A stretch of DNA of 64,000 nt from Candidatus Dormiibacterota bacterium (GTDB lineage: Bacteria; Acidobacteriota; Polarisedimenticolia; Gp22-AA2): positions 1-64,000 of the forward strand of contig DASQAT010000048.1 of the NCBI GenBank assembly GCA_035635555.1. Direction: 5' to 3'. The number at the start of each line of letters is the position of its first letter. Within the stretch, counting starts at the first letter, position 1. The notes beneath the pieces were generated by a model that was given only the letters and a program-made list of their open reading frames with translations, was not told the origin of the DNA and ran no database searches. The position numbers and the translations under genes are program-made. Shown in pieces: positions 49,044 through 50,898 of the stretch.

Positions 49044-49204
49044 GGGGGAGCGGGCCGCAGCCCGCCCGCGCGGCACGGGTCCGGCTTGCTCGCGCAAGCC
49101 TCCCCTCGGTTCGCCTCGCGCCGCCCACCGCGCGAACTCCGCGCGGCGGGGCCCCGGCGCGAGGTCTCACACGGCCGCGCGGGCGGGCTGCGGCCCGCTC
49201 CCCC
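49044..49204 (-). repeat. Dispersed structured element, copy C
   Basis: 161 bp. The ends (49044-49073 and 49175-49204) pair perfectly over 30 bp. On the minus strand it has GAGACC (49163-49168), the 27-base GGGCGG to CGAGGGGAG block (49100-49126), and CGGACCCGTG (49074-49083). Inner hairpins are perfect: CCGCGCG with CGCGCGG (49128-49146), and GGCTTGC with GCAAGCC closed by a GCGA tetraloop on this strand (49083-49100). The element fills most of the gap between uvrA and the divergent thioredoxin-like gene. Confidence 0.88.
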
Positions 49205-49231: not shown

Positions 49232-49858
49232 ATGACCGCTCCTCGCACGAAGACGCTCGTCGTCTCCTTGGCGACGGGAATACTCGCGCTCCTCGCCATC
49301 GGCGCGTACTTCTACTTTGCGCCTCGGAGTGCGCCCGGTCGGCCGAGCCTCGTTCACCTGGACGCGGGGAACATCAACGCCCTGCGGGATGACTTCAATG
49401 CGGCGGCGGGGGGGACGCGTGTGGTGCTCTTGCTGTCGCCGACCTGACCGATCTGCGTGGGGGGGGCCTCCGCGATCGGGGACGTGCTGCGGCGGACGCC
49501 GGGGGGGTCGCTGCGTGTCTTCCTCGTCTGGGAGCCGGTGCTGGCGACCGACCTGTCGCCGCCGCTCCCGAGCGTCCTCGCGCGCGTCGCCGATCCGCGG
49601 GCGCGGCATTTCTGGGATCGGGGGCGCCTGGTGTCGGCCGGGCTCCTGCGCGTCCTCGAGGCCGGCCGCGCGGGTGGAGAGGGGGCCGATCCCCCCGAGC
49701 AGGACGGAATCGTCTGGGACACCGTGGCGGTCTACCCGCCGGGGGTGGTGTGGGGGGATGCCGTGCCGGCGCCCGGCTACGTCGATGGTCCGGTGGTCCG
49801 CGTGATCGAAGAGGTCGCCCGGCGGCTGGCATCAACTCCCGAAGCTCCGGGCCGTTAG
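49232..49858 (+). CDS. Thioredoxin-like membrane-anchored protein with in-frame UGA (probable selenoprotein)
   Basis: ATG at 49232 gives a 208-residue protein if the UGA at 49445-49447 is read as selenocysteine. An N-terminal membrane anchor (LVVSLATGILALLAIGAYFY) is followed by VVLLLSPT, then the UGA, then PIC and VGGASAIGDVLRRTPGG. The UGA takes the first cysteine position of a thioredoxin CxxC, giving U72-P-I-C75. The reading frame stays protein-like after it (LRVFLVWEPVLATD, then HFWDRGRLVSAGLLRVLEAG) to a normal TAG stop. A hairpin begins right after the UGA (see next entry). The protein would be a periplasmic redox protein. If the UGA is a plain stop, this is a pseudogene of 71 codons. 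Confidence 0.65.
49448..49479 (+). promoter_or_regulatory. Candidate bacterial SECIS hairpin
   Basis: Directly after the UGA, CCGATC (49448-49453) pairs with GATCGG (49474-49479). After a bulged T, GCG pairs with CGC, giving nine base pairs and a 13-base G-rich loop (49458-49470). Bacterial SECIS elements are hairpins within the roughly 40 bases after the UGA, with a guanine-containing loop bound by SelB. The stem lies in coding sequence and keeps the frame. High GC makes chance stems common, so this is supportive only. Confidence 0.5.
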
Positions 49859-49896: not shown

Positions 49897-50898
49897 ATGC
49901 CCGCGCGACAGCGCCGTCTCGTCATCTACCTGCCTCACCGCCAGCCGATCTGGATGCTGCCGGAGGGGTGCCTGGAGACCATCAGGCGCCGGGCCCTGAA
50001 GTCCTTCCAGATCGACCTGCCGATGAACGAAGACGCGTTCGTGCGCGTCCTGCCGGGGGCCGAGGTGCTGTTCGCCTGGGGGATCGCGCGGCGGCACGTG
50101 GACAAGGCCGACACGCTGCGCTGGATGCACACGCCTCTGGCCGGGGTCGACCGGGTCCTGAGCCCCGAGCTGGTGAAGAGTCCCATCCGCATCACCTCGT
50201 CGCGCGGCGTGAACTCCGTCGCCGTGGCGGAGCACACGCTGGGTCTCATCCTGTCGATGACGCGCGGCATCGCCGACTCGGTGCGGGCCCAGGGGGAGAG
50301 CCGGTGGGCGCAGCACGAGATCTGGGGCCGCAGACCGCCGGTTCAGGAGCTGCACGGCCAGGTCCTGGGCATCCTCGGCCTGGGGGACATCGGCCGGGAG
50401 CTCGCGGTGCGCGCCCGCGCCCTGGGGATGACCGTCTGGGGGCTCGTCCGAACCCCGCGCGCCAAGCCGGACTATGTCGACCGCCTGCTCGCGGCGGGGA
50501 AGGAGGAGGCGCTCATCCGCGCAAGCGACGTCCTGGTGCTGGCGGTGCCGCTGACGCGCGACACCAAGGGGATGATCGGCGAGCGGCAGCTGAAGCGGAT
50601 GAAGCACACGGCCTGCCTCATCAACATCGGGCGCGGTGAGCTGGTGCAGGAATCCGCCCTGGTCCGCGCGCTGCGCGAAGGCTGGATCGCCGGCGCCGGA
50701 CTGGACGTGTACGCCGCCGAGCCGCTCCCCCCCTCGAGCCCCCTGTGGCGGCTGCCCCAGGTGGTGATGACGCCGCACATCGCCGGCACCCACCCGCAGT
50801 ACATGGGGCGATCCGCCGAGATCTTCCTCAATAACTTGAAGCGCTACCTCGCGGGCGAGCCTCTCATCAACGAAGTCGACAAGCAGGCGGGGTACTGA
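49897..50898 (+). CDS. D-isomer-specific 2-hydroxyacid dehydrogenase (NAD-binding)
   Basis: 333 residues from ATG 49897 behind GGGAGGAAT. The N-terminal substrate domain runs to TSSRGVNSVAVAEHTLGLIL. The NAD-binding Rossmann domain has VLGILGLGDIGRELAVRARA (near 165), with the nucleotide-specificity residues following. Catalytic residues are the arginine in INIGRGELV (near 250), the glutamate in AAEPLPPSSPLW, and the histidine in MTPHIAGTH. The enzyme interconverts a 2-ketoacid and a D-2-hydroxyacid; the substrate is unknown. It follows the selenoprotein-like gene by 38 bases and could be co-transcribed with it. Confidence 0.92.
   Translation: MPARQRRLVIYLPHRQPIWMLPEGCLETIRRRALKSFQIDLPMNEDAFVRVLPGAEVLFAWGIARRHVDKADTLRWMHTPLAGVDRVLSPELVKSPIRITSSRGVNSVAVAEHTLGLILSMTRGIADSVRAQGESRWAQHEIWGRRPPVQELHGQVLGILGLGDIGRELAVRARALGMTVWGLVRTPRAKPDYVDRLLAAGKEEALIRASDVLVLAVPLTRDTKGMIGERQLKRMKHTACLINIGRGELVQESALVRALREGWIAGAGLDVYAAEPLPPSSPLWRLPQVVMTPHIAGTHPQYMGRSAEIFLNNLKRYLAGEPLINEVDKQAGY

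Follow-up and report, generated by a model that had tools for sequence, protein, structure and literature searches.

The question raised by positions 49232–49858 (+ strand) of the 64,000-nucleotide stretch of DNA analyzed here (the window) is whether a TGA codon at 49445–49447 interrupts a gene or is read as an amino acid within it. The frame runs from ATG to TAG with this TGA as its sole in-frame stop; 71 codons precede it, and 136 sense codons and the stop codon follow; a first-pass annotation had counted 137 codons of protein-like sequence after the TGA. When the TGA was read through, a product of 208 residues was obtained which begins with a hydrophobic segment at the N terminus and reads ...RVVLLLSPT-U-PICVGGASAIGD... 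around the TGA (motif context RVVLLLSPT-U-PIC-VGGASAIGD), so that U takes the place of the first Cys in a CxxC-type motif. We estimate a probability of roughly 95%, judged from sequence, that this gene encodes a selenoprotein of 208 codons plus TAG in which UGA is read as selenocysteine (Sec72). The observations computed here are a single interrupted gene, interchange of Sec and Cys among relatives, a complete set of host machinery, a covarying hairpin and a thioredoxin fold.

The gene is preceded by uvrA on the opposite strand and followed on the same strand by a D-isomer 2-hydroxyacid dehydrogenase gene with its ATG at 49897. The interval between uvrA and the selenoprotein gene also contains a perfect 31-bp inverted repeat (49044–49074 and 49174–49204, separated by a 99-nt spacer) which is unique in the host genome.

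The read-through protein was scanned against 396 genomes of the phylum to which the window belongs and homologues were found in 47 of these, about one in eight. One further locus was from a Chloroflexi metagenome assembly, the single locus by which the spread of the family beyond this phylum is known, and no homologue was found in the plasmids searched. The homologues are full length and the alignment of 31 members (A1) covers both sides of the TGA, which together with the translation confirmed the first-pass proposal of one reading frame split by a single TGA. With TGA read as Cys, the residues invariant in this alignment were F55, R63, P70, site 72, C75, W100 and D163. Cys75, the resolving residue of the U-x-x-C motif, is encoded by TGC at 49454–49456 (+ strand) in the window; one relative (L102, G250:C14) has TGA at both motif positions, giving UxxU.

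At the site aligned with the UGA at 49445–49447, each of the 50 loci carried either TGA (39 loci) or a Cys codon, TGC or TGT (11 loci), and no other codon was observed, so that the Cys-containing homologues sought by the first-pass annotation do exist; the Sec-heavy ratio of 39:11 may be inflated since the search began from a Sec member. When the site column was masked for tree building, the resulting tree required at least eight changes between the Sec and Cys states. One genome, G156, contains two TGA copies together with one Cys copy (L097). Another Cys form (L096) was found in G329, a genome which gave no SelB-level match (best E 1.6e-55 vs. 1e-80 and below for SelB matches). Such natural Sec/Cys pairs, present even within G156, in a family where most of the copies found have kept Sec and switches to Cys have been repeated, offer a setting in which to ask what selenium buys.

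Directly after the UGA, at 49448–49479 (+ strand), a bSECIS-like hairpin with an all-G apical loop was predicted. In the predicted fold of 49448–49486 a stem of 13 bp, interrupted by two single-U bulges, is capped by a GGGG loop; its energy is −20.3 kcal/mol, and the lowest-energy structure accounts for 86% of the ensemble. The hairpin and G-rich loop described in the first-pass annotation were thus recovered, with a predicted stem of 13 bp in place of the 9 bp given there. By energy the hairpin was only modestly better than shuffled sequences (z −1.71; 14 of 200 shuffles were as good), and no match to it was found in Rfam. When the published bSECIS model (PMC13188914) was applied, as had been suggested with the original description, the stem, the GGGG loop and the energy all agreed with the model and the spacing was borderline, being 15 nt when measured on the lowest-energy fold and 16 nt when measured on the family register.

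Evidence that this structure is maintained came from the family as a whole. A 7-bp stem starting at the tenth base after the UGA was paired in 82.4% of cells among 26 TGA members, and pairing dropped to 30%–53% in shifted registers. Cells changed on both sides of this stem numbered 35 vs. 9.4 (sd 2.6) in shuffles, and covariation was 0.625 vs. 0.249 (sd 0.033) in shuffles and at most 0.19 when the stem was slid along the alignment. Using a null in which each protein sequence was kept and synonymous codons were drawn, TGA members formed 5.77 pairs vs. 4.07 (sd 0.17) expected (z 9.9), while Cys members had no pairing excess (2.80 vs. 2.42, z 1.1). Over all 50 loci the value was 5.72 pairs for the 39 TGA loci and 3.0 for the 11 Cys loci (Mann-Whitney P 1.1e-5, a value which, like the Fisher P given below for selB, overstates independence because genomes and loci share ancestry). 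Energy alone did not separate the two classes (mean −13.8 kcal/mol for TGA vs. −14.4 kcal/mol for Cys members); only the register-specific pairing did so. The window hairpin forms five of the seven family-register pairs in addition to its own longer stem. A hairpin which covaries in the relatives and is absent from the Cys relatives supports the initial reading of this element as a SECIS.

In the host assembly, which is 99.24% complete and comprises 4.28 Mb in 59 contigs, we found all four components of the selenocysteine pathway for which the first-pass annotation had proposed looking: selA (542 bits), selB (333.7 bits, above cut-off), selC in the form of a tRNA-Sec with anticodon TCA (75.9 bits; a UCA tRNA) and selD (365.8 bits). 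The host selD gene (L048, G000:C46:119634-120566) likewise contains an in-frame TGA; it lies within GUAAK, the usual SelD Sec site, and the host genome therefore has at least one other selenoprotein. Across the phylum sample selB was above cut-off in 253 of 396 genomes (64%), compared with 34 of the 36 genomes carrying TGA copies (Fisher P 1.1e-5). The two TGA-form genomes in which selB was not detected were G266 (72% complete) and G242 (90% complete, 950 contigs).

Searches of Pfam and NCBIfam gave no match to the window protein at E 1, neither to a curated thioredoxin family nor to any other, and nothing significant was obtained when PDB sequences were included. Among the 31 aligned members, matches to Thioredoxin_4 were weak and limited to five (best E 0.026), and strong matches to HMA, CopZ or MerP models were those of members with an extra metal-binding domain. 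The AlphaFold model built with the 31-member alignment was confident (mean pLDDT 90.5, pTM 0.80). It contains a helix at residues 5–29, predicted from this and the hydrophobic translation to be a transmembrane helix or uncleaved signal anchor (49244–49318, + strand), followed by a thioredoxin-fold domain at residues 40–208 (49349–49855, + strand) in which the U72–C75 motif opens the active-site helix, 73–88. The top Foldseek match was DsbF from M. tuberculosis (3ios, E 1.5e-4), which VIA-align superimposed with a Z of 11.9 and an rmsd of 2.6 over 119 residues. Z values of about 11–12 were obtained to DsbF, DsbE, ResA and glutathione peroxidases; at identities of 5%–19%, these similarities of a predicted model are indicative of fold only. 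The thioredoxin-like character assigned at first pass is in agreement with these structural matches.

The product is probably a membrane-anchored and probably extracytoplasmic protein, a putative selenol/thiol-disulfide reductase, and for the reductase role of the window protein we lean towards acceptance with some reserve. The hairpin just downstream of the UGA would recruit SelB with Sec-tRNA(UCA), allowing the ribosome to read UGA as Sec. The single N-terminal helix would anchor the product in the inner membrane with an N-in topology, placing the thioredoxin-fold domain and its redox pair Sec72-x-x-Cys75 outside the cytoplasm. There it would most likely reduce a disulfide or another oxidized or thiophilic substrate, with Sec attacking and Cys75 resolving, and a DsbD/CcdA-type membrane protein may re-reduce it. 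The host has a DsbD_TM protein.

The alternative which survives best competes with this explanation on function only. It accepts the selenoprotein and, in place of general disulfide reduction, gives the selenol a role with mercury or soft metals, which it would bind or reduce. In other clades of the family the recurrent neighbours include MerR-family regulators (11 loci), MerT-like transporters (7 loci), CopZ-like metallochaperones and MerA-like flavoproteins, and about 16 of the 50 loci have at least one MerR-, MerT-, CopZ- or MerA-like gene within 3 kb; these genes are described as "like" since most neighbour representatives gave good NCBIfam matches which were below curated cut-offs. Some members also carry HMA or MerP-like domains. 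However, mer-like neighbours are missing from all six members of the window clade, no conserved operon partner was found in this clade, and the window gene sits between uvrA and the D-2-hydroxyacid dehydrogenase gene, so that location with mer genes is a feature of part of the family and not of this locus. A MerT search of the host gave no match, and the same search matched no control genome either. Part of the family may plausibly act on metals; for the window protein we consider a metal role a tentative and rather unlikely reading. A broader scenario, in which these mostly Sec-containing, membrane-anchored or lipoprotein-like thioredoxins, a family as yet without a name and common in one phylum, act through the selenol on mercury or soft metals as ligand or reductant, Sec having joined a metal-resistance pathway and the window clade being a stand-alone version, seems to us somewhat more doubtful still. 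The link to mer-like clusters in other clades makes a metal role testable.

Several family members, among them L072, L081, L067 and L065, have mer-like genes clustered around them or carry a fused HMA/MerT-like domain; neither applies to the window clade.

The other alternatives concern the UGA codon itself. The TGA is one base from both TGC and TGT, and no homologue was found in the other genomes of the same genus or family within the 396-genome scan, as might be seen if a Cys codon had mutated to TGA in a pseudogene or had been misread in sequencing or assembly. That TGA recurs in 39 loci from diverse genomes, always at this codon, refutes such an origin for the family as a whole and, with the intact downstream coding sequence and the covarying hairpin, makes it very improbable for the window gene. 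To a similarly slight degree we entertain a pair of genes, one for a short protein that terminates at the UGA and another starting at the in-frame GTG just after it (49457); where the site holds a Cys codon, homologues are single uninterrupted proteins containing this domain, and a division at the UGA would split the active site of the thioredoxin. Reassignment of UGA in the host (for example to Trp) or plain leaky read-through would equally leave the frame open once TGA is read as a residue, and is the least probable of all, since TGA terminates seven of the eight neighbouring genes that were checked and is thus still a stop codon in this host, relatives have Cys alone and never Trp at the site, and the Sec machinery is complete.

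Among the closest known systems are extracytoplasmic thioredoxins of the DsbF, ResA, TlpA and CcmG types (3ios, 2f9s, 1jfu, 1kng). They share with the window protein the thioredoxin fold and a helix that opens with the active-site pair, and ResA- and TlpA-type proteins are membrane-anchored. The window protein differs from these in having less than 20% identity to them, Sec in place of the first Cys and no Pfam thioredoxin match, and the conserved residues W100, W128-D129 and W162-D163 mark the window family. Glutathione peroxidases (GPX4 and relatives) gave a similar structural Z of about 11, and in them too Sec opens this helix, but their motif is UxxT, which lacks the resolving Cys at the third residue after Sec, and their identity to the window protein is about 5%–12%.

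Neither the recoding mechanism nor the UxxC thioredoxin-like theme is new (PMC9312934, PMC13188914). Bacterial selenoproteins of this kind include a thiol:disulfide interchange protein, DsbA- and DsbG-like proteins, GOS_C, SaoT and the HUIPC family (PMC13188914, Table 1), which have the UxxC motif, bSECIS-directed UGA recoding and the thioredoxin fold in common with the window family. The NCBIfam models given in that work (e.g., NF045500, NF040730, NF047660) were not among the matches of the 31 members at E 0.1. No description of the window family was found in a search limited to open-access papers. Genes of this family are easily missed, because standard gene calling stops at the UGA and neither Pfam nor NCBIfam has a model of them. 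A further listed entry is a UxxC "redoxin family protein" (HEU0032618.1, PF08534; PMC13188914), which resembles the window family in being UxxC and redoxin-like; it is set apart by the absence of PF08534 from the matches of the 31 members at E 0.1 and may belong to the same family. We therefore regard the window family as a new one of a known kind, absent from the searched model libraries and open-access papers and using a well-known recoding mechanism.
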